Of a stretch of DNA of 64,000 bases, positions 16,347-35,593 are shown in pieces (position 1 is the stretch's first letter; each line of letters opens with the position of its first letter). The notes below the pieces were generated by a model, which searched no databases, was not told the origin of the DNA, and was given only the letters and a program-made list of their open reading frames with translations. The stretch lies in assembly GCA_026005015.1 (NCBI GenBank), contig BPKG01000001.1:501501-565500 (forward strand), given 5' to 3'. Origin of the DNA: Burkholderiales bacterium (GTDB lineage Bacteria; Pseudomonadota; Gammaproteobacteria; Burkholderiales; UBA6910). A program made the translations under genes and the position numbers.

Positions 16347-16714
16347 TTGATCATGCCCCCGCCCGGGAGCCGTAGCCCGTCGCGGACCCCCGCTCCCCGG
16401 GCCGGGTGGGAAACCCGGAATCCTCCGGGCGTCCGTCCCAAAACGCCCCGTAGGGTACCACATGCGCGCCGCCCCCGCCGCATGACCTGTCCCTGTTTCC
16501 CAATGGTGGGACGATGGCGCTGACGGACCGGAGCTACAAAAAGTCGATAAGTCTTGTGTCTTATATAAGATTAGGGTTAAGGTTATAGGCCAAAAGGCCG
16601 CGCCCGGCCGGAGACGATCGTGGCGCGCGCTTACCGCGCCGCACTAAAATGCTCTAAAACGAAAGAAGCGGCGGCAGGATTTTTCATCATTCCATGACCT
16701 TGAAGGAGGAAGCC
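16347..16714. promoter_or_regulatory. Intergenic region between 4.5S RNA and acs
   Basis: A 368-bp region between the divergent ffs and acs. It holds no convincing small gene. The AT-rich part, 16535-16590, carries the palindrome described separately and must contain the acs control region. A TAAAAT at 16645-16650 could be an acs -10 box, but the matching -35 (TGGCGC at 16621) is poor, so I do not call a promoter. The acs start is decided by AAGGAGG just before ATG 16715. Confidence 0.6.
16559..16570. promoter_or_regulatory. Palindromic operator TCTTATATAAGA upstream of acs
   Basis: A perfect 12-bp palindrome, 145 bp before the acs start. The same sequence occurs upstream of prpC2 (56196-56207), and a one-mismatch copy lies between gntR and mdh (54035-54046). 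Inferred to be the binding site of the GntR regulator at 53245-53988. Confidence 0.6.
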
Positions 16715-18679
<1,965 letters not shown>

Positions 18680-18811: not shown

Positions 18812-19768
18812 GTGACGCTGCCCGCCTTGATTCAGTACGACCATGGCATCGCCGCGGTGGACTCGGGCTATTACCGGCCCAACCTGGATGCGATCCACGT
18901 CATCGTGGAGCGGGGCCGAGCGGCTATCGTGGACACGGGCACCAGCCGCTCGGTCCCCGGGCTCCTGGCCGCCCTGGAGGCGCTGGGGGTGGATCGGCAC
19001 GCGGTGGACTACATCCTGGTCACCCACATCCACCTGGACCACGCGGGCGGCGCCGGGCAGCTCGCCCTGGCCCTGCCCCGGACCCCCATCGTGGTCCATC
19101 CCCGGGGAGCGCGCCACCTGGTAGATCCGGGGAAGCTGGTGGCCAGCACCCAGGCAGTCTACGGCGAAGAGGAATTCCGCCGGCTCTACGGCGAGGTGCT
19201 GCCGGTGCCGGCCGAGCGGCTGATCGAAGCCCCCGACGGCTTCCGCCTTTCCCTGGCCGGGCGGGAGCTCGTTCTTCTCGACACCCCCGGCCACGCCCGG
19301 CACCATTACTGCATCTACGACGCGCGCTCCCGCTCGGTCTTCACCGGCGACACCTTCGGCATCTCCTACCGGGAGTTCGACGGGGAGGGGACGGAGTTCA
19401 TCTTCCCCACCTCGACCCCGGCCCAGTTCGACCCCGACGCGGCCCATGTCTCCATCGACCGCCTGGCGAGCCTCGAGCCCAGGCATGCTTTTCTCACCCA
19501 CTACAGCCGGGTGTCCCACGTGGCGCGGCACGCGGCCACCCTGCACCGGCTGCTGGAGGAGTACCGGCGGCTGGCCGAGCAGGCCCGCTCCGCGGGGCCG
19601 GCGCGCCACCGGGTGCTCACCGAGGGCCTGCGGGAGCTGCTGCTCGAGGAGGCCCAGGCCAGCGGCAGTCCTCTGCCGGAGGAGACCGCGGCGCAGCTCC
19701 TCGCCATGGACATCGAGCTCAACGCCCAAGGAATCGAAGTCTGGATGGACGCTAAGGCCAAGGCCTGA
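18812..19768 (+). CDS. Metallo-beta-lactamase-fold hydrolase
   Basis: A 318-residue MBL-fold protein starting at GTG 18812, 15 bases after the acs terminator. Seen: the dinuclear metal motif THIHLDHAGG, further ligands in DTPGHARHHYCIYD and FTGDTFG, and a C-terminal helical extension of about 90 residues. The fold is clear but substrate is not; MBL-fold proteins include thioesterases, glyoxalases and lactonases. Its place between acs and an acetate-type sensor module makes a role in acyl-CoA or ester chemistry conceivable, but nothing in the sequence proves it. Confidence 0.85.
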   Translation: MTLPALIQYDHGIAAVDSGYYRPNLDAIHVIVERGRAAIVDTGTSRSVPGLLAALEALGVDRHAVDYILVTHIHLDHAGGAGQLALALPRTPIVVHPRGARHLVDPGKLVASTQAVYGEEEFRRLYGEVLPVPAERLIEAPDGFRLSLAGRELVLLDTPGHARHHYCIYDARSRSVFTGDTFGISYREFDGEGTEFIFPTSTPAQFDPDAAHVSIDRLASLEPRHAFLTHYSRVSHVARHAATLHRLLEEYRRLAEQARSAGPARHRVLTEGLRELLLEEAQASGSPLPEETAAQLLAMDIELNAQGIEVWMDAKAKA

Positions 19769-19847: not shown

Positions 19848-20057
19848 ATGAGGGAGAACGTGACCGGGGAGCGGCTGATCGCCGTGTTCCTCGTCGGCTG
19901 CCTGTTGTTCAACTACCCCCTCCTCGACCTCTTCAACAGCGACGCCGAGGTCTTCGGCATACCGCTGCTCTTCGCCTACATCTTCGCCGCCTGGATGCTG
20001 CTGATCGGGCTGATGGCCTGGATCGTGGAGGCGCGTCCGGGCCGGCGGGAGCACTAA
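19848..20057 (+). CDS. Small two-helix membrane protein upstream of the sensor kinase
   Basis: A 69-residue protein starting at ATG 19848 with GAAAGGG eight bases upstream. Two hydrophobic helices are visible: LIAVFLVGCLLFNYPLLDLF and an equally long one beginning IPLLFAYIFAAWML, with an Arg-rich cytoplasmic tail. It ends 9 bp before the transporter-like sensor kinase. Its size and place resemble the small partner of the symporter at 27775, so it may be an accessory subunit of the kinase's transporter domain. I do not recognise a named family. Confidence 0.7.
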   Translation: MRENVTGERLIAVFLVGCLLFNYPLLDLFNSDAEVFGIPLLFAYIFAAWMLLIGLMAWIVEARPGRREH

Positions 20058-20066
20058 GCTCCGCCG

Positions 20067-22916
20067 ATGCTGCAAGGCTCGGTCATCGTCATCGCCTCGT
20101 TCGCCTACCTGGGCATCCTGTTCGCCATCGCCTATTACGCCGACAAGCGGGCGGACGCCGGGCGCTCGGTCATCGCCAACCCCTACATCTACGCCCTGTC
20201 CCTGGCGGTCTACGCCACTTCCTGGACCTTCTACGGGAGCGTGGGGCGCGCCGCCTCCACCGGCATCGGGTTCCTGCCCATCTACCTGGGCCCGACCCTG
20301 ATGGCGGCCCTGTGGTGGTTCGTGATGCTCAAGATCATCCGCATCAGCAAGGCCAACCGCATCACCTCCATCGCCGACTTCATCTCCTCCCGCTACGGCA
20401 AGAGCCAGCTCCTGGGGGGTCTGGTGACCGTGACCGCGGTAATCGTCATCATCCCCTACATCTCCCTGCAGTTGAAGGCGGTGTCCAACACCTTCAGCCT
20501 GCTGCTGCACTACCCGGAAGTCTCCGCCCCGGCGGCGCGCGCTGCCCAGCCGGTGGTGAGCGACAGCGCCTTCTACATCGCCCTACTGCTGGCGGCTTTC
20601 ACCATCGTCTTCGGCACCCGGCACCTGGACGCCTCCGAGCGCCACGAGGGCATGGTGGCGGCCATCGCCTTCGAGTCCCTGGTGAAGCTGCTCGCCTTCG
20701 TCGCCGTGGGGCTGTTCGTCACCTTCGGCCTGTACAACGGCTTCGCCGACATCTTCGACCGGGCAGCGGAGCTGCCCAAGCTGAACGCCCTGCTCACGGT
20801 GGGCGGCGCCGCGGGCACCTACGACACCTGGGCCTCCCTCACCGTGCTGTCCATGCTCTCCATCATGCTCCTGCCGCGGCAATTCCAGATCTCGGTGGTG
20901 GAGAACGTGAACGAAAAGCACGTGCTGAAGGCGATCTGGCTCTTTCCCCTCTACCTTTTCGCCATCAACATCTTCGTCCTGCCCATCGCCTTCGGCGGGC
21001 TCATGCGCTTTCCCGACGGGGGTGTGGACGCCGACACCTTCGTGCTCACCATCCCTATGGCCGAGCAGCAGGAAGCGCTCGCGCTGTTCGCCTTCATCGG
21101 CGGGCTGTCCGCCGCCACCGGCATGGTGATCGTGGAGACCATCGCCCTGTCCACCATGGTGTGCAATGATCTCGTCATGCCGGTGCTGCTGCGGCTGCGC
21201 TGGTTGCGGCTGACCGAACGCCCGGACCTGACCGGGCTGTTGCTCGGCATCCGGCGCGGCGCCATCGTCGCCGTGCTGCTGCTCGGCTACCTCTACTTCC
21301 GCCTCGCCGGGGAAGCGTACGCCCTGGTGTCCATCGGCCTCATCTCCTTCGCCGGCGTGGCTCAGTTCGCCCCGGCGTTCTTCGGCGGCATGTACTGGAA
21401 GGGCGGAACCCGCACCGGCGCCATCGCCGGCCTCACGGCGGGCTTCCTGGTGTGGGCCTACACCCTGCTCCTGCCCTCCTTCGCCCGTTCCGGCTGGCTA
21501 CCCATCTCCTTCCTCGAAGCGGGCCCCTTAGGCATCGAGCTGTTGAAACCCCTGGAGCTTTTCGGCCTGCGGGGTCTCGACCAGAACACCCACTCCCTCT
21601 TCTGGAGCATGCTGGCCAACATCGGCGCCTACGTGGCCGGCAGCCTCCTCACCCGTCCGAGCGTGGCGGAGCACAGCCAGGCGACCCTGTTCGTCGACGC
21701 CTTCAAGAAATCCCCGGAGTCCACCGGATCGCGCTTCTGGCGGGGGTCGGCCACCGTGGACGACCTGCGGCCCGTGCTCAGCCGCTTCCTCGGGGCCGGA
21801 CGGGCCGAGGAGGCGCTGCGCGAGTACGCCCTCCGGCGCGGGCTGGAGGACGTAAGCGACCTGCAGGCCGACGCGGACCTGGTCCACTACGCCGAGACCC
21901 TGCTCGCCGGCGCCATCGGCGCGGCCTCGGCCCGGGTCATGGTGGCCTCCACGGTAAAGGAGGAACCCCTGACCATGGACGAGGTCCTGAACATCCTGGA
22001 CGAGACCTCCCAGATCATCGCCTATAGCCGCCAATTGGAGAGCAAGTCCCGGGCGCTGGAAAGGGCGACCGCCGAGCTCAAGGCGGCCAACGAGCGCCTG
22101 CAGGAGGTGGACCGGCTGAAGGACGACTTCATCTCCACCGTCACCCACGAGCTGCGCACCCCCCTCACCTCGATCCGCGCCCTCACCGAGATCCTGCACG
22201 ACAACCCCGACCTGGACGCGGCCGAGCGCACCCGCTTCCTCGGCATCATCATCAAGGAGAGCGAGCGGCTGACCCGGCTCATCAACCAGGTGCTGGACCT
22301 GGCCAAGCTGGAATCCGGCAACGCTGACTGGCACAACACGGAGCTGGACCTGCGGGAGGTGATCGAGGAGGCGGTCGCCTCCACGGCCCAGCTCTTTAAG
22401 GAGAAGCGGGTCAAGCTGGAGACCCGCCTGGAGGCGAACGTGCCGCGCATCACCGCCGACCGGGACCGCCTGGTGCAGGTCATGCTAAACCTGCTCTCCA
22501 ACGCGGTGAAATTCTGCGAGCCCGAGCGGGGCCGGGTGACCGTCACCTTGAGGCGGGAGGGCAAGACGCTGCGGGTGGACGTGAGCGACAACGGAATCGG
22601 CATCAGTCCCGAGCACCAGAAAGTGATCTTCGAAAAATTCAGGCAGGTGGGGGACACGATGAGGGCCCGGCCCTCGGGCACCGGGCTAGGGCTGCCCATC
22701 AGCCGCCAGATCATCGAACATTTCGGGGGACGGCTGTGGGTCGAGAGCGCGCCCGGGCGCGGGGCGACGTTCTCGTTCACCATCCCCCTCGCCCCCGAGC
22801 GGGTCGCCGCGGCCGCGCGGGCTGGACAAGCCGACGCGAGAACCGGCGCACAAGGGGAAATCGCCGCAACGGAGGAGGCCAAGCATGGGCAAGCGGATAC
22901 TGATCGCCGACGATGA
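20067..22916 (+). CDS. SLC5-type transporter/histidine kinase hybrid (CrbS/MxtR-like)
   Basis: A 949-residue sensor with an N-terminal sodium/solute symporter domain of about 12-13 membrane helices (residues 1-500), a cytoplasmic linker, a coiled coil, then a kinase core. Seen: HisKA motif HELRTPLTSIRAL with the phospho-acceptor His near residue 694, N box NLLSNAVKF, G1 VSDNGIGIS, and G2 SGTGLGLPIS. In Vibrio and Pseudomonas, kinases of this build (CrbS/MxtR) switch on acs. The nearby acs, symporter and DUF294 genes match that context. The response regulator starts inside its last 32 bases. Confidence 0.9.
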   Translation: MLQGSVIVIASFAYLGILFAIAYYADKRADAGRSVIANPYIYALSLAVYATSWTFYGSVGRAASTGIGFLPIYLGPTLMAALWWFVMLKIIRISKANRITSIADFISSRYGKSQLLGGLVTVTAVIVIIPYISLQLKAVSNTFSLLLHYPEVSAPAARAAQPVVSDSAFYIALLLAAFTIVFGTRHLDASERHEGMVAAIAFESLVKLLAFVAVGLFVTFGLYNGFADIFDRAAELPKLNALLTVGGAAGTYDTWASLTVLSMLSIMLLPRQFQISVVENVNEKHVLKAIWLFPLYLFAINIFVLPIAFGGLMRFPDGGVDADTFVLTIPMAEQQEALALFAFIGGLSAATGMVIVETIALSTMVCNDLVMPVLLRLRWLRLTERPDLTGLLLGIRRGAIVAVLLLGYLYFRLAGEAYALVSIGLISFAGVAQFAPAFFGGMYWKGGTRTGAIAGLTAGFLVWAYTLLLPSFARSGWLPISFLEAGPLGIELLKPLELFGLRGLDQNTHSLFWSMLANIGAYVAGSLLTRPSVAEHSQATLFVDAFKKSPESTGSRFWRGSATVDDLRPVLSRFLGAGRAEEALREYALRRGLEDVSDLQADADLVHYAETLLAGAIGAASARVMVASTVKEEPLTMDEVLNILDETSQIIAYSRQLESKSRALERATAELKAANERLQEVDRLKDDFISTVTHELRTPLTSIRALTEILHDNPDLDAAERTRFLGIIIKESERLTRLINQVLDLAKLESGNADWHNTELDLREVIEEAVASTAQLFKEKRVKLETRLEANVPRITADRDRLVQVMLNLLSNAVKFCEPERGRVTVTLRREGKTLRVDVSDNGIGISPEHQKVIFEKFRQVGDTMRARPSGTGLGLPISRQIIEHFGGRLWVESAPGRGATFSFTIPLAPERVAAAARAGQADARTGAQGEIAATEEAKHGQADTDRRR

Positions 22917-23262
22917 GCCCAACATCGTCGTTTCGCTGGAGTTCTTGATGGAGCGGCACGGCTACGAGATCCGGGTCGCCACCGACGGGGAAGAGGTGTT
23001 GCGGGCGGTCGAGGAATTCCGCCCCGATCTGATCCTGCTGGACGTGATGCTGCCGGGCAAAAGCGGGTTCGAAGTCTGCCAGAAGCTGCGGGAGGACCCC
23101 GCCTGGCAGGGGGTGAAAATCGTGATGCTCACCGCCAAGGGGCGGGAGACGGAGGTGGCCAAGGGGCTCGCCCTGGGGGCCGACGCCTACATCACCAAGC
23201 CCTTCTCCACCAAGGAGCTGATCGCCCAGGTGAAGAAGCTTCTGGGGGAACAGGCCGCGTGA
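22885..23262 (+). CDS. Single-domain response regulator
   Basis: A 125-residue CheY-like receiver. Seen: acidic pocket DDE at residues 9-11, phospho-acceptor Asp 53 in LILLDVMLPG, MLTAK with the conserved Thr/Ser position, and TKPFS with the conserved Lys. It has no DNA-binding output, unlike the LuxR-type CrbR/ErdR partner of such kinases, so it must act on another protein. It overlaps the kinase gene by 32 bp and shares GTGA with the next gene, so the three are translated together. Confidence 0.93.
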   Translation: MGKRILIADDEPNIVVSLEFLMERHGYEIRVATDGEEVLRAVEEFRPDLILLDVMLPGKSGFEVCQKLREDPAWQGVKIVMLTAKGRETEVAKGLALGADAYITKPFSTKELIAQVKKLLGEQAA

Positions 23263-25394
23263 GCCGAGGGAGGTTCGTCCTCGTCCTGGCTCTCTGCTAC
23301 GGGGCGACGATGGGCCTGCCCGGGCTGCTGGGCTGGCTCGTCTGGCGGCGGCTCCCCACCGAGCTGCAGGGCCCGGCGCTGGAGGCGCTGGCGGACCAGG
23401 CGGTGCTGTTCGCCATGACGGCCGTGGGCGTCCTGTTCGCCCTGGCGATCCTGCTCGAGCTCCTTTCCAACCTCTACCTGACCCCGATCCGCCGCTTGCG
23501 GGAGGACCTCCAGGTCATGCTGGAGGCCAATCCCGCCCATCGCGCGAGCGCCGAAGGGGCTGCCGACGTGCGCGCCCTGGTGGAAAGCGTCAACCGCTTC
23601 GCCGAGCACTACCACGCCCTGCTGGAACGGGTGGAAGCCCGGGTGGAAGAGGCCAAGCGGGCGGTGGAGGAGGAAAAAAACCGCCTGGCGGCGGTGATCT
23701 CGGAGCTCGCCCAGGGGGTGCTCGTGTGCAACATTGAGGGGCAGATCCTGCTCTACAACAACCGCGCCCGGCAGCTCCTTTCCGCCAATCCCGCGGGATC
23801 GGCGACCGGCGGCCTGGTGGGGCTAGGGCGCTCGGTGTTCGGCGTGATCGACCGGCCGCTGATCCTCCATGCCCTGGACACCATCCACAGCCTGCTCTCC
23901 CAGAAGCGCCCCCATGCGGTGGCCCGGTTCGTCACCACCGCTCCCTCGGGGCAACTCGTGCGGGCGCTGGTGGTGCCGGTGCTCGGCAACGAGGGGCTGA
24001 CCGGGTTCGTCATGACCCTGGAGGACGTGACGCGCACCGTGGAACAGGGCAGCCGTCGGGATGCCCTGCTGCAATCCGTCACGGAGGGCAGCCGGGCGGC
24101 GCTCGCCAGCATCCGCGCCGCGGTAGAGACGCTGCAGAGCTTTCCCGACATGCCGGCCGAGCAGCAGGGGCGCTTTATCGCCGTCATTAGCCAGGAAGCC
24201 AGCCGTCTCTCCGAACGCATCGAGGGCGCCATCCGGGAATTCTCCGACGCCATGAAGGCGCAATGGGTCATGGAGGACATGCTGGGCGAGGACCTGGTGG
24301 CCGCCGCCTGCCGGCGTATCGAGACGCGGCTCGGCCTCGCCGCCAAGGCGGAAATCCTGGCCCCCGACCTGTGGATGCGGGTGGACAGCTTCGCCCTGGT
24401 CCAGGTCCTGGCCTACCTGGCCGCCCGGCTCAAGGAGGAGTTCGGCGTGTGGGAGCTGCGCCTGCGGCTCGCGGGCGAGGGACGGCTCGCCCATCTGGAC
24501 CTGGTGTGGCGCGGCGCGCCCCTTTCGGCGGAAACCGTGTTCGCCTGGGAGAGCGAGCCCCTCACCGCGGGAGGCGAGGACCTGCCCCTTACGGTGAAAG
24601 ACGTGATCGAACGCCACGACGGGGAGATCTGGTACCAGCGGGACCGCCCCGCCCAGGAGTCGTATTTCCGCCTGCTGATCCCGGCCAGCGCCCCGGAAAC
24701 CGCGGGCCTCGCCCTGCCCGCCCCGGCCGGGAGCCGGCCCGAATACTACGACTTCGACCTCTTCCGCCAGCAGCCCTCCAGCCCGGCGCTGGACGAGCGC
24801 AGGCTCACGGAGCTCAAGTACACCGTGTTCGACACCGAGACCACGGGGCTGGAGCCTTCGGCGGGCGACGAGATCATCTCCATCGGCGCGGTGCGCATCG
24901 TCAACGGCCGGCTGCTCCTGCACGAGGTATTCGACCAGTTGGTGGACCCGCGCCGGCCCATGTCGCCCGAATCCATCAAGGTGACCGGCATCGACCCGTC
25001 CATGCTCCGGGGCCAGCCCCCCATCGAGGCGGTCCTCCCGGCGTTCCATCGCTTCTGCGAGGACTCGGTGCTGGTCGCCCACAACGCGGCTTTCGACCTG
25101 CGCTTCCTGCAGATGAAGGAAGCCCAGGCGGGGGTGAAGTTCGACCAACCGGTGCTGGACACTTTGCTCCTCTCCGCCGCGATCCAGCCCAATCAGGAAG
25201 ACCACAAGCTGGAGGCGATCGCCGCACGGCTGGGAGTCCCCGTGGTGGGCCGGCACACGGCCCTCGGGGACGCCATCGTGACCGCGGAAGTGTTCCTCAA
25301 GATGATTCCGCTCCTCGCCGAGCGGGGTATCCACACCCTGCGGCAGGCCCGAGAGGCATCCCAGCGGACCTACTATGCGCGCGTCCGGTACTGA
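23259..25394 (+). CDS. Degenerate sensor-kinase / DEDDh 3'-5' exonuclease fusion
   Basis: A 711-residue protein. Residues 1-75 hold two membrane helices, followed by a HAMP-like and coiled segment, a PAS domain (about 145-270, ISELAQGVLVCNIEGQILLY), a kinase-like dimerisation and ATPase region (about 275-480) and, from about 520, a DnaQ-type exonuclease. The nuclease motifs are intact: FDTETTGLEP (Exo I), VAHNAAFDLRFLQ (Exo II) and HTALGDAIVTAEV (Exo III). In the kinase part the usual HELRTPL is replaced by EGSRAAL, so the phospho-acceptor His is missing, and I see no clear N box. It starts at GTG 23259, coupled to the receiver gene. Function unknown. Confidence 0.88.
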   Translation: MSRGRFVLVLALCYGATMGLPGLLGWLVWRRLPTELQGPALEALADQAVLFAMTAVGVLFALAILLELLSNLYLTPIRRLREDLQVMLEANPAHRASAEGAADVRALVESVNRFAEHYHALLERVEARVEEAKRAVEEEKNRLAAVISELAQGVLVCNIEGQILLYNNRARQLLSANPAGSATGGLVGLGRSVFGVIDRPLILHALDTIHSLLSQKRPHAVARFVTTAPSGQLVRALVVPVLGNEGLTGFVMTLEDVTRTVEQGSRRDALLQSVTEGSRAALASIRAAVETLQSFPDMPAEQQGRFIAVISQEASRLSERIEGAIREFSDAMKAQWVMEDMLGEDLVAAACRRIETRLGLAAKAEILAPDLWMRVDSFALVQVLAYLAARLKEEFGVWELRLRLAGEGRLAHLDLVWRGAPLSAETVFAWESEPLTAGGEDLPLTVKDVIERHDGEIWYQRDRPAQESYFRLLIPASAPETAGLALPAPAGSRPEYYDFDLFRQQPSSPALDERRLTELKYTVFDTETTGLEPSAGDEIISIGAVRIVNGRLLLHEVFDQLVDPRRPMSPESIKVTGIDPSMLRGQPPIEAVLPAFHRFCEDSVLVAHNAAFDLRFLQMKEAQAGVKFDQPVLDTLLLSAAIQPNQEDHKLEAIAARLGVPVVGRHTALGDAIVTAEVFLKMIPLLAERGIHTLRQAREASQRTYYARVRY

Positions 25395-26880
25395 AAAGAC
25401 GCGGCAGGAAACGGCGCCGCCCGGCGGGCGCACCGGCGCGGCGGAACTGCCGCCCATGGACCGCCTGCTCTCCACCCTCGCCCACAAGCCCGTCACCTGC
25501 CCGCCCCACGCTTCCATCGGATCGGTGCTGGAAACCATGCAAAGGCACGGCATCGGCTCCATGATCGTGGTGGACGAGGCCGGCGGGCCCCTTGGTATAT
25601 TCACCTTGCATGACCTGCTGAGCCGGGTCGCCCTGCCCCAACGGAGCCTCGCCGACCCCATCGAGCAGGTGATGACCCGCAGCCTCACCACCCTGCCTTC
25701 CCACGCCACCGCCTACGAGGCGGCCCTGGCCATGGTGCGCCACGGGATCCGCCATCTTCTGGTGGTGGATGCCGGGCGGCTGGTGGGGGTCGTTTCGGAA
25801 AAAGACCTGTTCAGCCTGCAGCGGGTGAGCATGCGCCAGCTCTCCCAGGACATCCGCAACGCCGACAGCCTGGAGAGCCTGCAGCAGTTCAGCGCCGAGG
25901 TGCGCAAGCTGGCCCAGAGCATGCTCGTCCAGGGCGTGGCGGCGGAGCAGCTCACCCAGTTCATCGCCTCGCTGAACGATCTGCTCACCCAGCGGGCGAT
26001 CGACCTGGAGTTCCGCGGCGCGGACCTGGAGCCGATCCGCTGGTGCTGGCTCGCCCTGGGCAGCGAGGGGCGCCTGGAGCAGACCCTAAGCACCGATCAG
26101 GACAACGGGATCCTCTTCGAGGTGCCCCGGGGTACGACCGCAGGGGAGGTGCGCGAGCGGCTGCTGCCGATCGCCCAGCGGATCAACCTGACCCTGGATC
26201 GTTGCGGCTTCCCCTTGTGCCGCGGCGACATCATGGCGGGCAACCCCCACTGGTGCCTGAGCGCGGAGGAGTGGCGGGGGAAATTCGCCGCCTGGATCGA
26301 CAGCGGCAGCCCGGAAGCCCTGCTGCACGGCTCCATCTTCTTCGACTTCCGTCCCCTGCACGGGGAAGCCCGCCTCGCCCTGGAGTTGCGGCAGTGGCTG
26401 CTCCCCCATGCCAGCGCGAACCGCCGTTTCCTGCACCAGATGGCGGAAAACGCCCTGCGCAACCGGCCGCCCCTGGGCTTTTTCCGGGACTTCGCCGTGG
26501 ACGCTAGCGGCGAGCACCGCAACACCATCGATCTGAAGCTGAACGGAGCCACCCTGTTCGTGGACGCCGCTCGCATCTTGAGCCTGCACACCCAGGTGCC
26601 CGCCACTAACACGGCGGAACGGCTGCGGCGCTCGGCGGAAAAGTTGCACCTCCCCCGGGACGAGGTGGAAGCCTGGGTCGAGGCGTTCTACCACATCCAG
26701 CGGCTGCGGCTCCAGCACCAGCACCAGAGAATCCTCGAGGGCCTGCCGCCGAACAACCGCTTGAACCCTTATGCGCTCAACCGGCTCGAGCGTCGCATCC
26801 TCAAGGAGGCGCTGCGGCAGGCGAAAGCCCTGCAGGCGCGCCTGGCCCTGGAGTATCAGGTCTCGGGATTGACCGGCTGA
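25375..26880 (+). CDS. CBS-pair / DUF294 putative nucleotidyltransferase
   Basis: A 501-residue protein with two CBS domains (about residues 28-145, PVTCPPHASIGSVLETMQRHG and the second near TLPSHATAYEAALAMVRHG), a DUF294 nucleotidyltransferase-like domain with the signature GSEGRLEQTLSTDQDNGI, and the DUF294 C-terminal helical domain. The CBS pair probably binds an adenine nucleotide; the GlnD-like centre suggests nucleotidyl transfer to a partner. It overlaps the fusion gene by 20 bp. ATG 25456 (MDRLLSTLAHKP) is a possible later start. Pseudomonas and Vibrio carry this family beside the acetate symporter. Confidence 0.9.
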   Translation: MRASGTEKTRQETAPPGGRTGAAELPPMDRLLSTLAHKPVTCPPHASIGSVLETMQRHGIGSMIVVDEAGGPLGIFTLHDLLSRVALPQRSLADPIEQVMTRSLTTLPSHATAYEAALAMVRHGIRHLLVVDAGRLVGVVSEKDLFSLQRVSMRQLSQDIRNADSLESLQQFSAEVRKLAQSMLVQGVAAEQLTQFIASLNDLLTQRAIDLEFRGADLEPIRWCWLALGSEGRLEQTLSTDQDNGILFEVPRGTTAGEVRERLLPIAQRINLTLDRCGFPLCRGDIMAGNPHWCLSAEEWRGKFAAWIDSGSPEALLHGSIFFDFRPLHGEARLALELRQWLLPHASANRRFLHQMAENALRNRPPLGFFRDFAVDASGEHRNTIDLKLNGATLFVDAARILSLHTQVPATNTAERLRRSAEKLHLPRDEVEAWVEAFYHIQRLRLQHQHQRILEGLPPNNRLNPYALNRLERRILKEALRQAKALQARLALEYQVSGLTG

Positions 26881-26891
26881 GGCCCGAGCGC

Positions 26892-27566
26892 TCAAGAGGC
26901 GTCGCCGTGGTCGAGCTGGTAGCCCCGCCCGTGGAAGGTGCGCACCGTGACGCCGCTATTCTCCAGCTTCTTCCGCAGGCGGTGCACGTAGACCTCGATG
27001 GCGTTGAACGTGACCCCGTCGTCGAAACCGCAGAGCCGCTCCAGAAGCTGCTCCTTGCTCACCACCCGGCCGAAGTGCTGGAGCAGCACCTCGAACACAC
27101 TCACTTCCCGGGGCGATAGGGGCAGCGTCTTGCCCTTCACCTGCAGGGTCCGGGTGACCGCGTCGTAGCTCACCCCCTCCCCCAGCATCTGGGACGGGAG
27201 GCTGTACCGGCTGCGGCGCAGCAGCGCCCGTACCCGGGCCAGGAACTCGTTCACGCTGAAGGGCTTGGCCATGTAGTCGTCGGCGCCCAGGTCCAGGACC
27301 CGGGCCTTGTCGTCCGGCGCGTCCCGGGCCGAAAGGACCAGCACGGGGGTGGCGCTCAAGCGGGCCCTAAGCCGCCGCAGCACCTCGAACCCGTCCACGG
27401 TGGGCAGCCCCAGGTCCAAGATCACCAGGTCGAAGGGATGGCGCTTGAGCACCTGGTCGGCGGTCTCCCCGGTGCCCACCCGGTCCACCGCGTAATTGGA
27501 GATTTTCAAGGCGAATTCGATCGCCTCCCCCAGCACGGGGTCGTCCTCCACCACCAGGATTCTCAC
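26892..27566 (-). CDS. OmpR-family response regulator (QseB/PmrA-like), no adjacent kinase
   Basis: A 224-residue two-domain regulator. Seen: receiver with VVEDD, phospho-acceptor Asp 51 (VILDLGLPTVDGFEVL), SARDAPDD, MAKPFSVNEF, and a winged-helix DNA-binding domain (SPREVSVFEVLLQHFGRVVS, then NAIEVYVHRLRKKLENSGV). No histidine kinase lies beside it, so its partner is elsewhere or is the transporter-like kinase. It converges on the DUF294 gene and diverges from the symporter pair across 208 bp, which contains candidate binding repeats. Confidence 0.93.
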   Translation of the reverse strand: MRILVVEDDPVLGEAIEFALKISNYAVDRVGTGETADQVLKRHPFDLVILDLGLPTVDGFEVLRRLRARLSATPVLVLSARDAPDDKARVLDLGADDYMAKPFSVNEFLARVRALLRRSRYSLPSQMLGEGVSYDAVTRTLQVKGKTLPLSPREVSVFEVLLQHFGRVVSKEQLLERLCGFDDGVTFNAIEVYVHRLRKKLENSGVTVRTFHGRGYQLDHGDAS

Positions 27567-28041: not shown

Positions 28042-30121
28042 ATGGCCGTCTCGAGTCAAGCTCAATTTAACCAGGCGCTGAAGAAGTACTACAGCTTCTA
28101 CACCGGCGGTTTCATCGCCTTCGTGATCGTCCTGGCCATTCTGGAAGCCTTGGGCGTTCCGAACCGGGTCATCGGCTACATCTTCCTGTTCGCCACCATT
28201 GCGCTCTACGCCGGCATCGGCATCATGAGCCGCACGGCGGACGTGGCCGAGTACTACGTGGCCGGGCGGCGCGTGCCGGCCTTTTTCAACGGCATGGCCA
28301 CCGGCGCCGACTGGATGTCGGCGGCGTCCTTCATCGGGATGGCCGGCAGCCTTTACCTGTTGGGCTACGATGGACTGGCTTTCATCATGGGATGGACCGG
28401 CGGCTACGTGCTGGTAGCCCTGTTCATCGCGCCCTTACCTGCGCAAGTTCGGCCAGTTCACCATCCCCGACTTCCTGGGGGCCCGCTACGGCGGTCATGT
28501 CCCGCGCCTGATCGGGGTCTTCGCCGCCATTCTGTGCTCGTTCACCTACGTGGTGGCCCAGGTGATGGGGGTGGGCATCATCACCAGCCGGTTCACGGGC
28601 CTGGAGTTCGGCATCGGGGTGTTCGTCGGCCTAGCCGGCATCCTGGTGTGCTCCTTCCTCGGCGGCATGCGGGCGGTGACCTGGACCCAGGTGGCCCAGT
28701 ACATCATCCTGATCATCGCCTACCTGATTCCCCCCATCTGGTTGGCGGCCAAGCAGACCGGCGTGCCGGCCCCGTGGGTGGTCTACGGCTACCAGCTCCA
28801 GAAAGTGACCCAGCTCGAAGACAAGATCCTCGCCGATCCCAAGGAAAACGAAGTCCGGGATATCTTCAAGCAGAAGTCCGAAGCGGCCAAGGCGGCGCTA
28901 AAGGACCCCGCCAAGGCCTATGCGGACGGCAAAGCCGCGCTGGAGAAGCGGCTCGCCGACTTGAAGGCGGCCAACGCTCCGGCGGAGGAGATCGTCAAGG
29001 CCGAGGAAGCGCTCAAGAAGTACCCGGCCACCCTGGAGGCCGCCGTCGAGCAGTGGAAAAAGGATGAGAAGTTGGCTGCTCGGGCGGCGCCGCTCAAGCG
29101 CCACGCCGAGATCTTCGCCGGCAAGGACGAACAGGACGTCGCCGTCAAACGGCGCAATTTCCTGGCCCTCATTTTCTGCCTTATGGTGGGCACCGCGGCC
29201 CTGCCCCACATCCTGATGCGCTATTACACGACGCCGAGCGTCAGGGAGGCAAGGCAATCGGTCTTCTGGTCCCTGTTCTTCATCTGCCTGCTCTATCTCA
29301 CCGCGCCGGCCCTGGCCGTGCTGGTGAAATACGAGGTCTACGCCAACCTGGTGGGCTCGGCCTTCGCCGAGTTGCCCCGGTGGGTGTCCCTATGGCAGGC
29401 GGTGGACCCGACCTTGCTCTTCCTCTCGGATGTAAATGGCGACGGCATCATCCAGCGGGCCGAGATCGCCATCCACGGCGACATCGTGGTGTTGGCAACC
29501 CCCGAGATCGCCGGGCTGCCCTACGTGATCTCCGGCCTGGTGGCGGCGGGGGGCCTCGCGGCGGCCCTCTCCACCGCGGACGGGCTGCTGCTCACCATCG
29601 CCAACGCCCTCTCCCACGACGTCTACTACAAGATGATCGACCCCAACGCGCCCACCTCCCGGCGCCTGGCGGTGGCCAAGACCCTGCTCCTGATCGTGGC
29701 CCTGCTCGCCGCCTACGTGGCGGCGCAAAAGCCGGCCGACATCCTGTTCCTGGTGTCGGCGGCCTTCTCCTTCGCCGCCTCCGCCTTCTTCCCGGCCCTG
29801 GTCCTGGGGGTGTTCTGGAAGAAGGCGAGCAAGCTGGGGGCCATCCTGGGCATGGTGATCGGCTTGGGGGTGTGCTTCTACTACATGGCCACCACCCAGC
29901 CGTGGATGCGGGGCCTGTTCGGGGTCACCGGCCCGATCTCGGACTACATGTGGTTCGGCATCCAGCCCATTTCGGCCGGGGTCTTCGGCATCCCGGCGGG
30001 CTTCATCGCCGCCATCATCGGCAGCCTGATCGCTCCCAACACCAACAAGGAGGTGATCGAGTTGGTGGACCACGTGCGCTATCCGAGCCTGGCGGGGGAC
30101 ATCGATACCCGGGCGACTTGA
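28042..30121 (+). pseudogene. Sodium/solute symporter, VC_2705/ActP-like, with a +1 frame disruption
   Basis: An SLC5-family transporter of the subgroup paired with DUF4212, probably for acetate or a related carboxylate. The first 131 residues (to CCC at 28432-28434) are in frame 28042. An extra T at 28435 then breaks the frame, and the rest (YLRKFGQFTIPDFLGARYGG onward) runs in the next frame to 30121. Without the base it would be 692 residues. Seen: about 12 membrane helices, a Lys/Glu/Ala-rich soluble loop of about 110 residues (28800-29150), and an EF-hand loop DVNGDGIIQRAE at 29429-29464. Either a sequencing error or a real inactivation. Confidence 0.85.
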
Positions 30122-33676: not shown

Positions 33677-35593
33677 CTAAGCCGCCTGTACCTTGGCGGC
33701 CGTCACTGCCACCTTCACCTGTTCGATGCCAGCGGGATCGTCCAGGGTGGTCAGGTCCCCTGGATCGCGGCCTTCGGCGATCGCCTGGATGGAACGCCGC
33801 AGCACCTTTCCCGAACGGGTCTTGGGCAACTGGGTGATGAAATGTACCCGGGACGGCCGGGCGATGGCGCCGAGCTGGCTGTCCACCACGCCCATGATCT
33901 CCTTTTCCAGCGCCGTGCGCCCCTCCGGGGTGGCGATGCGGCTCGGGTCCTTGACCACGGCGAAGGCCAGGGGGAGCTGGCCTTTCAGTTGATCCGCCAC
34001 CCCCACCACCGCCACTTCGGCGACGGCGGGATGGGAGCTGATGGCTTCCTCGATCTCCCGCGTGCCCAGGCGGTGGCCCGCCACGTTGATCACGTCGTCG
34101 GTGCGGCCCAGGATGAAGTAGTAGCCGTCCTCGTCCCGCATCCCCCAGTCGAAGGTGGTGTAGATCAAGCGGTCCTTGAAGCTGGAAAAATAGGTGGAGA
34201 CGAAGCGCTCGTCCTGGCCCCAGACGGTGGACATGCAGCCGGGCGGAAGCGGCGGGACGATGCACACCACCCCCTTCTCGTTCGGGCCCACCTCCTCCCC
34301 CGTCTGCTCGTGCAGCAGCCGCACGTCGTAGCCGTAAGCGGGAAAGCTGGGGCTGCCGAACTTGACGGGCGTCTTCTCCACCCCGGGCACCGCGGTCAAA
34401 ATCGCCCAGCCGGTCTCCGTTTGCCAGTAGTGGTCGATCACCGGCACCCCCAGGGCTTCGGCGATCCACCGGGCCGTGGGCTCGTCCAGGGGCTCGCCGG
34501 CGAGGAACAGGTGCTTCAAGGACGAGACATCGTACTTCTTGAGGTAGCTCGGATCCTGTTTCTTCAGCACCCGGATGGCGGTGGGGGCGCTGAACATGAC
34601 GGTGACCTGGTGGTCCTGGACGATCTTCCACCAGATCCCGGGATCGGGCCGGATGGGTACCCCTTCGTAGACCACGGTGGCCATGCCGCGGATGAGGGGC
34701 CCGTACACGATATAGGAATGGCCCACCACCCAGCCGATATCGGAGGTGGCGAAATAGGTCTCGCCCGGCTCGCCGCAGTAGATCCACTTCATGCTGGCGG
34801 CCAGCGCCACCGCGTGGCCTCCCGTGTCCCGCTGAACCCCCTTGGGCCGCCCGGTGGTGCCAGAGGTGTACAGGATGTAGGAAGGCTCGCTCGCCTCAAG
34901 CCAGACGACGGGCACCTGGGCGTCCAGGTGCCGGCTGCGCAGCTCGGCGTAATCCAGATCGCGCCCCGGCGTGAGGGGCATCTGGGGGTCGAGTCCCCGG
35001 TTCACCATGACCACCTTTTCGGGCGGGAACTGGGATAGCCGGAGGGCCTCGTCCACCAGGTGCTTGTAGGGGATCTTGTTCCCCATGCGCATGCCGGCAT
35101 CGGCGGTCACCATGACCTTGGGTCTGGCGTCGTCGATGCGGGCGGCGAGGCTCCCGGAGGCGAACCCGCCGAACACCACCGAGTGGATCGCCCCCAGCCG
35201 CACCGTGGCCAGCATGGCGAAGATCGCCTCGGGGACCATGGGCATGTAGATCAATACCCGGTCGCCCCTGGCGACCCCCAGGCTTCGCAGCACCGCGGCG
35301 CAGCGGTTCACTTCCTGGTGCAGCTCCCGGAAGGAGTAGACCCGTTCCTGGTTCGTTTCGGTGGAGATGTAGATCAGGGCCTTCTGGTCGGCCCGGTCCT
35401 TCAAGTGCCGGTCCACCGCGTTGTAGCAGAGGTTGGTCTCTCCGCCCACGAACCACTTGGCGAACGGCGGGCGGCTGTAGTCCAGGACCTTCTCGAAAGG
35501 CTTGTGCCAGTCCACCAGGGCAGCCTGCTCCGCCCAGAAAGCCTCGCGTTGCTCGATGGAACGCCGGTGAAACTCCTTGTACGTCTCGCCCAT
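33677..35593 (-). CDS. prpE: Propionyl-CoA synthetase PrpE
   Basis: A 638-residue AMP-forming acyl-CoA synthetase that activates propionate. Seen: YTSGTTGRPKGVQRDTGGH (P-loop-like), HYWQTETGWAIL, the YYFILGRTDDVINVAGHR hinge, and PKTRSGKVLRRSIQ with the regulatory lysine. It differs from the window's Acs throughout, has WQTETGWA instead of WQTETGGH and is shorter; with its prpBC neighbours this supports propionate as substrate. It is last in the prpB-prpC1-acuI-prpE run, 70 bp after acuI. Confidence 0.94.
   Translation of the reverse strand: MGETYKEFHRRSIEQREAFWAEQAALVDWHKPFEKVLDYSRPPFAKWFVGGETNLCYNAVDRHLKDRADQKALIYISTETNQERVYSFRELHQEVNRCAAVLRSLGVARGDRVLIYMPMVPEAIFAMLATVRLGAIHSVVFGGFASGSLAARIDDARPKVMVTADAGMRMGNKIPYKHLVDEALRLSQFPPEKVVMVNRGLDPQMPLTPGRDLDYAELRSRHLDAQVPVVWLEASEPSYILYTSGTTGRPKGVQRDTGGHAVALAASMKWIYCGEPGETYFATSDIGWVVGHSYIVYGPLIRGMATVVYEGVPIRPDPGIWWKIVQDHQVTVMFSAPTAIRVLKKQDPSYLKKYDVSSLKHLFLAGEPLDEPTARWIAEALGVPVIDHYWQTETGWAILTAVPGVEKTPVKFGSPSFPAYGYDVRLLHEQTGEEVGPNEKGVVCIVPPLPPGCMSTVWGQDERFVSTYFSSFKDRLIYTTFDWGMRDEDGYYFILGRTDDVINVAGHRLGTREIEEAISSHPAVAEVAVVGVADQLKGQLPLAFAVVKDPSRIATPEGRTALEKEIMGVVDSQLGAIARPSRVHFITQLPKTRSGKVLRRSIQAIAEGRDPGDLTTLDDPAGIEQVKVAVTAAKVQAA

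Follow-up and report, generated by a model that had tools for sequence, protein, structure and literature searches.

A 64,000-nucleotide stretch of DNA from a Burkholderiales bacterium (assembly GCA_026005015.1, contig BPKG01000001.1, positions 501,501 to 565,500; hereafter the window) was found to encode a 711-residue protein in which a probable membrane anchor, a PAS-like domain and a histidine kinase core that has lost its autophosphorylation residues are fused to a predicted DnaQ-like DEDDh exonuclease. The gene is almost certainly part of a conserved five-gene system, together with the genes for a small hydrophobic protein, an SLC5-type transporter-kinase, a single-domain response regulator (the receiver), and a DUF294 nucleotidyltransferase. 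The partner that best tracks the exonuclease is the DUF294 nucleotidyltransferase and not the receiver, and a functional pairing of the two is strongly indicated. As the best explanation of the whole we tentatively propose, at somewhat less than an even chance, a membrane-bound phosphodiesterase that would be gated by the receiver and would undo the attachment made by the DUF294 protein; the gating, the substrate, and the antagonism are the elements that we infer. The five genes and the parts of the fusion are listed below.

19848..20057, plus strand: small hydrophobic protein, probably membrane, 69 aa; first of the five-gene set
20067..22916, plus strand: SLC5-type transporter and histidine kinase fusion, phospho-acceptor His kept (CrbS/MxtR-like)
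22885..23262, plus strand: single-domain response regulator, 125 aa, phospho-Asp D53; Response_reg E 5.3e-30
23259..25394, plus strand: membrane-PAS-pseudokinase-DEDDh exonuclease fusion, 711 aa; GTG start, stop codon ending at 25394
23262..23528, plus strand: two membrane-type helices of the fusion, residues 2–31 and 48–90; AlphaFold helices and hydrophobic sequence
23679..24044, plus strand: PAS-like domain, about residues 141–262; sub-threshold PAS matches and predicted fold
24045..24716, plus strand: pseudokinase core, residues 263–486, with a part like a dimerization and histidine phosphotransfer (DHp) domain and a part like a catalytic and ATP-binding (CA) domain; acceptor position E276 at 24084–24086
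24732..24764, plus strand: conserved linker SRPEYYDFDLF, residues 492–502; R493, P494, D498, and F499 in 94/94 aligned fusions
24804..25391, plus strand: DEDDh (DnaQ-like) exonuclease domain, residues 516–711; Pfam match, catalytic residues, and fold
25375..26880, plus strand: CBS-DUF294-DUF294_C nucleotidyltransferase, up to 501 aa; PF03445, PF10335, CBS

Domain Composition of the Fusion

The reading frame of the fusion is open and uninterrupted. In the Pfam scan, RNase_T was matched at residues 523–679 (E 1.1e-37; 130.6 bits against a cut-off of 24), the PAS models were matched below their own cut-offs, and HisKA was matched at E 0.0063 (17 bits against 26.9); HATPase_c gave no Pfam match up to E 1. 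The AlphaFold model (mean pLDDT 80.2, pTM 0.58, input alignment of 69 rows) predicts helices at residues 2–31 and 48–90, a coil at 102–148, a PAS-like domain at about 150–256, a DHp-like hairpin at 258–328, a CA-like alpha/beta domain at 339–476, and the exonuclease at 520–711. The second helix extends past one membrane span, and the protein is likely to be anchored in the membrane. Using Foldseek, the middle of the fusion was matched to a WalK model (9a5d, E 4.2e-20, 466 columns) and to 4i5s (E 3.2e-16, 416 columns), with TM values of only 0.2–0.4 and root-mean-square deviations of about 19–21 Å across several domains. The predicted PAS-DHp-CA fold is that of a sensor histidine kinase. The rows of the VIA structural comparison for the fusion are exonucleases, a list that leaves room for other matches of the remaining parts.

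An alignment of 94 fusions was assembled from the window, four loci of a search among relatives, ten of a class survey, and 79 of 80 named loci. Kept out were L006 (partial), L021 (the window itself), L082 (contig end), L032 and L034 (exonuclease without similarity), and L033, L035, L036, and L037 (no kinase-like part). All five exonuclease residues, which in the window are D525, E527, D613, H666, and D671, are present in 94/94 rows; this figure is partly built in, since the rows were chosen by similarity to both parts. The exonuclease superimposes on PolC 9qrn (VIA Z 24.4, 196 aa, 2.4 Å, 33% identity) and on epsilon 2gui (Z 21.5, 165 aa, 1.6 Å, 36% identity). From its residues, its Pfam score and its modelled fold, the domain is a DnaQ-like DEDDh exonuclease (PF00929) with predicted activity. 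The sequence-only reading of this DNA had proposed two membrane helices, a PAS domain, a kinase-like region without the phospho-acceptor His, and a C-terminal nuclease with intact Exo motifs in a single frame; the frame, the Pfam matches, the model, and the aligned residues agree with it on each of these points.

Conservation of the Gene Set

A near-whole fusion was found in the window genome and in G001, G003, G013, and G023 among the 31 genomes of the relatives search; in G002 its second half is present, at the edge of a contig. Of the 274 genomes of the class survey, 11 carry the fusion with a recognisable exonuclease and two (G081 and G220) carry it with a dead one. In the phylum survey, for which a fusion profile of five rows was used, the match reaches the kinase-like part in 46 of 398 genomes from 12 family codes. 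A scan of contigs with the PAS-kinase part gave at least 596 pattern matches, of which at least 497 encode a relative, and the 80 named loci are the best 80 of these. Because the fusion recurs to this extent in the surveys, an origin by sequencing error was rejected, and the reservation of the sequence-only reading that the fusion might exist only here is answered. In other lineages, however, there are exonucleases encoded as separate genes next to DUF294.

Neighbours were counted in those named loci whose sequence extends far enough on the side concerned. The receiver gene is next to the fusion in 67/76 loci, the SLC5 kinase lies just before it in 64/74, and a DUF294 gene starts within about 4 kb after it in 53/71. 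These counts support a strong linkage to a single-domain receiver and to SLC5-type kinases, as had been suggested from the window alone. All nine receiver-less loci are labelled Accumulibacter; in the four genomes with such loci that were searched (those of L087, L101, L106, and L130), an SLC5-kinase match and DUF294 lie elsewhere, the kinase match being divided between two frames in the genome of L087. G023, which is rated 100% complete, retains the fusion and DUF294, with no SLC5-kinase match at E 1e-60.

The order of the genes varies. An arrangement DUF294-receiver-fusion-small protein-SLC5 kinase was seen in the phylum survey (e.g., L214, L219, and L236), and a plasmid of Paracoccus denitrificans PD1222 carries DUF294-small protein-SLC5 kinase-receiver-fusion as overlapping frames. 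The domains and homology of the Paracoccus cassette were confirmed, and its fusion has Glu at the acceptor position and Arg at +3. Neither acs nor a solute:sodium symporter is among the genes annotated 3.8 kb before and 9 kb after this cassette, where the gene table is incomplete. An acs-like gene is present somewhere in 42/58 loci whose sequence extends 6.5 kb or more ahead of the fusion frame, and a relative of the VC_2705-type symporter in 38/58 loci with enough sequence. From the Paracoccus cassette without acs and from the varied orders, we take the minimal set to be the five genes, with the acetate genes frequent and dispensable; from the count of acs-like genes, betaproteobacteria do have a real link between the cassette and acetate genes. 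The link is not general.

In the window, the receiver gene overlaps the start of the fusion gene by 4 bases, and the longest reading of the DUF294 gene overlaps its end by 20 bases, although the DUF294 start may be further in. The SLC5-type kinase matches HisKA (E 9.4e-19) and HATPase_c (E 5.3e-33), both above cut-off, and is 57% identical overall to the Paracoccus cassette gene, whose SSF match is below cut-off. In the receiver, Asp53 and Lys105 are kept in 70/70 aligned receivers, and the Pfam scan found no output or DNA-binding domain. Pfam and NCBIfam scans of the 69-aa protein gave no match; it is 38% identical over 65 aa to the Paracoccus gene that adjoins the SLC5 kinase. A small hydrophobic gene next to the SLC5 kinase is kept across beta- to alphaproteobacteria.

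Pairing of the Exonuclease with the DUF294 Nucleotidyltransferase

The DUF294 protein of the window matches PF03445 (E 4.2e-45), PF10335 (E 3.7e-47), and CBS (E 4.5e-28). The motif residues G229, S230, G232, R233, E235, D241, Q242, and D243 are invariant in 85/85 aligned rows, one of which is a second copy of the window's own protein. The AlphaFold model (pLDDT 91.9) was matched to the N-terminal domain of GlnE (1v4a; Z 25.1, 309 aa, 3.1 Å, 15% identity), the C-terminal domain of GlnE (3k7d; Z 24.7, 306 aa, 3.1 Å), and DrrA (6yx5; Z 24.4, 294 aa, 3.6 Å). These rows outrank those of CBS domains, which make up most of a VIA list that holds ranked chains only and leaves room for other matches of the remaining parts. 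A PDB sequence search with the catalytic half gave no match up to E 10. The CBS pair resembles AMP-bound CBS structures. By its polymerase-beta-type motif and predicted fold the protein is GlnE/GlnD-like, and it may modify a protein. DUF294 has been placed in the polymerase-beta-like superfamily, where the cited table groups DUF294_C with GlnD/GlnE and lists DrrA in the same row (PMC3710099). A relative in Pseudomonas fluorescens, with CBS and nucleotidyltransferase domains, is described in the cited part of PMC5715377 as predicted to nucleotidylate, with a mutant that had no phenotype there.

A strong match to the fusion profile (E 1e-36 or better) was found in 56 of the 398 phylum genomes, spanning 15 family codes, and DUF294 is present in 56/56 of these. 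At E 1e-10, DUF294 is present in 145 of the 398, and the overlap has a hypergeometric probability of 7e-29 with phylogeny ignored. Among the 56 are the 46 that reach the kinase-like part, five with frames of 467–512 aa matched from about profile position 494, four (G314, G534, G585, and G491) in which the matched exonuclease shares its chain with DUF294, and one (G306) with a stand-alone exonuclease. In the class survey, 17 genomes have matches at E 3e-39 or better and 15 of them have DUF294; the two without it, G081 and G220, are those whose exonuclease motifs are lost. In fifteen genomes picked, DUF294 was found in 15/15, and ten of these have named loci with DUF294 apart from the fusion or out of view.

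The pairing was also approached from the side of DUF294. The class survey has 78 genomes with DUF294; 40 of them supplied one locus of 10 kb each, and a stand-alone exonuclease frame adjoins DUF294 in 30/40. Exonuclease, CBS, and DUF294 form a single chain in seven genomes (L036, L037, and L238–L242), two of which were confirmed by Pfam. From the steady pairing, the direct fusion, and the joint loss in one family, we conclude that the exonuclease and DUF294 serve one function.

The family of the joint loss, f80, contains full-length fusions in which Exo I, II, and III are lost (L032 509–2737, L034 1339–3510, and L202 1462–3537). These fusions retain the membrane-PAS-pseudokinase portion, and all four genomes of the family have the pseudokinase part; in L201, from a genome that is 79% complete, a stop precedes the exonuclease domain. 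The only DUF294 matches of the family, in two of the four genomes, barely exceed the Pfam cut-off, with 28.6 and 28.8 bits; they fall in frames 888 and 896 aa long that are taken as GlnD; the Escherichia coli control also matches DUF294 at the Pfam threshold.

In a tree of 95 exonuclease rows, which did not include the Pseudomonas putida exonuclease, a branch with support of 87/91 (not starred) sets apart the fusions, the exonuclease-DUF294 chains, the PAS-exonuclease of L033, and L035. The 30 stand-alone exonucleases next to DUF294 are grouped separately (99/93), and L243 falls with exonucleases taken as unlinked to DUF294 (98/89). Two side observations concern these proteins. Glu replaces the Exo II Asp in 24/32 rows of stand-alone DUF294-adjacent exonucleases (loci L161–L200). 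The 507-aa protein of L033 (1459–2982) is a membrane-PAS-exonuclease that has no kinase-like part and keeps a version of the conserved linker; the five frames of 467–512 aa may resemble it.

The Degenerate Kinase Core

In the window, the N-box and G1-box columns of the fusion were assigned through alignment to the neighbouring SLC5 kinase, and relative to that protein the acceptor His is replaced by E276, the N-box Asn by R390, and the G1-box Asp by W417. Across the 94 fusions the acceptor column holds E 64, D 21, Q 7, R 1, and V 1, with His in none; the N-box column holds R 79, K 12, H 1, S 1, and T 1, with Asn in none; and the G1-box column holds W 93 and C 1. The residues for autophosphorylation, as read from the alignment, are lost. 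Relative to a copy from the same genus, the exonuclease has a ratio of nonsynonymous to synonymous substitution rates (dN/dS) of 0.090; the values of the DHp and CA-like parts are 0.127 and 0.168, respectively, so that the dead kinase core is maintained by selection.

The cores of the fusion and the adjacent SLC5 kinase are homologous (hhalign E 1.4e-13). In the window they align over their full length (25% identity, E 9e-13), the first 60 residues without a gap. A profile from 18 pseudokinase cores was run on eight genomes, and the best match outside the fusion was the SLC5 kinase in seven of them (E 7e-8 to 7e-14, frames of 907–1051 aa), the eighth genome being G023. Other matches were at E 1e-3 or weaker, except for a 606-aa frame in G045 (4e-9). 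This ranking fits a descent of the pseudokinase from a kinase of the partner type. Two paralogues of the fusion per genome were observed in G098, G229, and G241; in G098, one adjoins the SLC5 kinase and the other is on another contig.

Arg is found three residues after the acceptor position (R279) in 94/94 fusions. In DivL of Caulobacter, the Arg at this position is Arg553, and its change is reported to weaken the binding of DivK~P (cited part of PMC4211667). The fusions have the DivL-type signature, in which the acceptor His is lost and the docking Arg at +3 is kept, and they may bind a receiver. Single-domain receivers need a protein target and the core is related to the probable kinase, so the dead core would be a natural target for the receiver.

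Proposed Mechanism and Alternatives

The pseudokinase presumably arose by the copying of a sensor-kinase core that resembled the one in the adjacent SLC5 kinase, to judge from the sequence ranking, and would have been retained after the loss of autophosphorylation as a scaffold for dimerization and receiver docking. The SLC5 kinase, by analogy with its family, would respond to acetate, pyruvate or a similar carboxylate by phosphorylating the single-domain receiver. The phosphorylated receiver may then bind the dead core, much like DivK~P on the pseudokinase DivL, and switch the exonuclease. The DUF294 protein, which is GlnE-like and has a CBS pair of the AMP/ATP-binding type, would attach a nucleotide to a target, from which it would be freed by the DEDDh domain as the nucleoside monophosphate (NMP). 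Since DUF294 enzymes transfer nucleotides and exonucleases release NMPs, opposition is the simplest relation between the two. They probably act on the same target. A nucleotidylated protein is our preferred target, although somewhat unlikely in itself; the 3' end of an RNA is the alternative to it. That the cassette as a whole is a two-component system with reversible nucleotidylation as its output, in which a DnaQ-like eraser, switched by a phosphorylated receiver on a dead kinase, removes what a GlnE-like writer adds, is unlikely.

Two lines of published work are consistent with the proposal. The epsilon subunit of E. coli is reported to cleave the p-nitrophenyl ester of thymidine monophosphate (cited part of PMC7694242), a hydrolysis that has been used as an assay (cited part of PMC4822814). 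The bond in this aryl ester is like that of a tyrosyl-NMP, and we infer that the epsilon fold can cut such a bond. In P. putida, pp_0354 and pp_0353 form an operon for a CBS protein and an RNase_T exonuclease within the MxtR/ErdR (CrbS/CrbR) regulon; the operon is tied to pyruvate use and ActP, and ErdR binds the pp_0354 promoter (cited parts of PMC9927547 and PMC8402216). Loss of pp_0353 impairs growth on pyruvate, and loss of pp_0354 does not (cited part of PMC9927547). A defect confined to the exonuclease mutant would be expected if the target is left stuck only when an eraser is lost. The phenotype fits a writer and eraser pair and has other readings, including mRNA decay.

A number of observations weigh against the proposal. 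RNase T is a DEDDh 3' exonuclease. In the experiments described in the cited part of PMC12663964, it did not remove AMP from sodA-AMP in vitro or from sucA-AMP in cells, and RNase E was likewise inactive on these substrates. Deletion of pp_0353 or pp_0354 had no effect on growth on acetate in the cited results of PMC9927547. The likeness of the DUF294 fold to protein adenylyltransferases, itself taken from a model, is no proof of activity. The dependence runs one way, in that the fusion profile gave no strong match in 89 of the 145 genomes with DUF294. DUF294 is not within about 4 kb downstream of the fusion in 18/71 loci, and 10 of the 40 DUF294 loci have no stand-alone exonuclease within their 10 kb (L188 has the start of a fusion and nine have neither). 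The case of a dead exonuclease without DUF294 is a single family, and the counts ignore phylogeny. A single clade of DUF294-linked exonucleases without L243 is neither shown nor rejected (p-AU 0.265). The separate recruitment of different exonucleases to DUF294 that the tree suggests is not claimed, because one such clade is compatible with the data. For the docking surface, we took the contact-type positions of the DHp domain to be acceptor +3, +4, +7, +11, and +12. Position +3 is shared with the SLC5 kinase in 71/71 pairs and +11 in 69/71, and positions +4, +7, and +12 differ in 71, 71, and 71 pairs, respectively. In the covariation comparison of the fusion and SLC5-kinase DHp domains, identity was clearly above the shuffled value only at +17 (27 vs 14.1) and slightly at +23. 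Given the differing contact positions and the lack of clear covariation save at +17, we regard gating of the fusion by the receiver as evenly balanced.

The exonuclease could instead carry out signal-controlled RNA decay, trimming, at the membrane, specific mRNAs or small RNAs that belong to carbon metabolism, with DUF294 only as a co-regulated neighbour or as an enzyme that adds nucleotides at the 3' ends of these RNAs. The DEDDh fold and residues are typical of RNA and DNA nucleases, and mRNA decay is the proposal of the pp_0353 authors themselves (cited part of PMC9927547). A mere neighbour, however, does not explain why DUF294 occurs in every strong-match genome, why direct chains exist, or why DUF294 is missing from the family with a dead exonuclease, and the best fold rows of DUF294 are protein adenylyltransferases, albeit on a list of ranked chains with room for RNA-tailing enzymes. 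We consider RNA decay doubtful. It is quite improbable that DUF294 makes a nucleotide messenger that the exonuclease degrades, in the manner of synthase and phosphodiesterase pairs. Small DEDDh enzymes can cut short oligonucleotides, which counts in favour of such turnover. So do the likeness of the CBS pair to AMP-bound structures and the membership of DUF294 in the polymerase-beta-like superfamily (cited part of PMC3710099); the top fold rows, however, are the protein-modifying GlnE and DrrA, on a list that could also hold messenger synthases.

A direct regulation of the SLC5 kinase by the fusion, through a heterodimer of the related DHp helices and with the exonuclease secondary, would draw on the gapless alignment of the first 60 core residues, on the closeness of the pseudokinase to that kinase, and on family f80, which retains the membrane-PAS-pseudokinase though its exonuclease is dead. 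Against these stand the exonuclease as the most constrained part of the protein and G023, which retains the fusion without an SLC5-kinase match, and we judge the heterodimer improbable. Public records file the relatives either under "exonuclease domain-containing protein" or under "DNA polymerase III subunit epsilon", and one of the ten plasmid records listed carries the epsilon name. The epsilon-family domain model TIGR00573 is passed (113.5 bits vs 71.5), and the closest structures are PolC and epsilon. A role in replication proofreading or repair is nevertheless very improbable: the domain scores 108.3 bits against the cut-off of 222.7 for the epsilon equivalog (TIGR01406), on which the identity with epsilon proper was rejected; G000 has another exonuclease frame of 260 aa, the size of epsilon; and the fusion sits in a signalling gene set.

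Neighbouring Genes in the Window

Two features flank the five-gene set.

16694..18679, plus strand: putative acetyl-CoA synthetase gene; upstream neighbour, outside the minimal set
28042..30121, plus strand: VC_2705-family symporter, two frames; downstream neighbour, outside the minimal set; TIGR03648 535 bits for the second piece

The former gene we take from its sequence to be that of acetyl-CoA synthetase. It is directly followed by a metallo-beta-lactamase-fold hydrolase at 18812–19768 (PF00753 E 2.7e-23). The symporter is split in this assembly, with 28042–29067 in one frame and 28550–30121 in another, which suggests a frameshift in the gene or in the assembly. Between the DUF294 and symporter genes lies a response regulator gene on the minus strand (26892–27566), presumably OmpR-like, and similar genes are present in L071, L085, and L088. 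What we take to be a second acyl-CoA synthetase of the acs/prpE kind is at 33677–35593 on the minus strand.

Comparison with Known Systems

No description of the fusion was recognised by title or abstract opening in a literature search whose coverage left out most subscription journals. The single parts are known; what is new is the way they are combined, with a nuclease placed on a pseudokinase that is linked to a receiver. If the proposal is correct, the output of a two-component system would be the reversible attachment of a nucleotide in place of transcription or cyclic nucleotides, and a nuclease fold of the proofreading type would have acquired an additional role, that of an eraser. The effect of pp_0353, which encodes a putative exonuclease within the acetate regulon, on growth with pyruvate would then also have a possible explanation. 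The cassette hints at an undescribed on/off switch in carbon metabolism. Even on a more modest reading there is a widespread gene set, the key protein of which appears in public records as a generic exonuclease or epsilon subunit, and in a named strain, P. denitrificans PD1222, all five genes follow one another with overlapping ends.

The pp_0354/pp_0353 operon of P. putida resembles the cassette in encoding a CBS-domain protein together with an RNase_T exonuclease, and differs in that its exonuclease is a separate gene, whereas that of the cassette is carried on a membrane PAS-pseudokinase beside a single-domain receiver. The window shares with the CrbS/CrbR acetate switch an SLC5-type transporter-kinase near acs and symporter genes, the transporter being assigned through the 57% identical homologue with its SSF match below cut-off. 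CrbR activates the transcription of acs (cited part of PMC5715377), whereas the receiver of the cassette has no DNA-binding domain; no genome-wide search for CrbR was made. RNase Z is reported to remove AMP from proteins that are substrates of SelO (cited part of PMC12663964), and such a nuclease acting on protein AMP would be a parallel for the exonuclease of the cassette. RNase Z has a metallo-hydrolase fold, however, and RNase T, which is nearer to the cassette domain, is the enzyme reported as inactive in the cited part of the same study.

The DivL/DivK pair of Caulobacter offers a kinase without the acceptor His that reads a single-domain receiver, and the fusion matches it in the Arg at +3. 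DivL has an acceptor Tyr and no nuclease, whereas the fusions have mostly Glu or Asp and a nuclease. GlnE and GlnD are approached by DUF294 in predicted fold and motif, and opposing activities in one chain would be paralleled by the exonuclease-DUF294 chains. The eraser of GlnD is an HD domain and not a DEDDh domain. In GlnE, the eraser is a second nucleotidyltransferase domain (cited part of PMC12663964), whereas the candidate eraser of the cassette is the DEDDh exonuclease.

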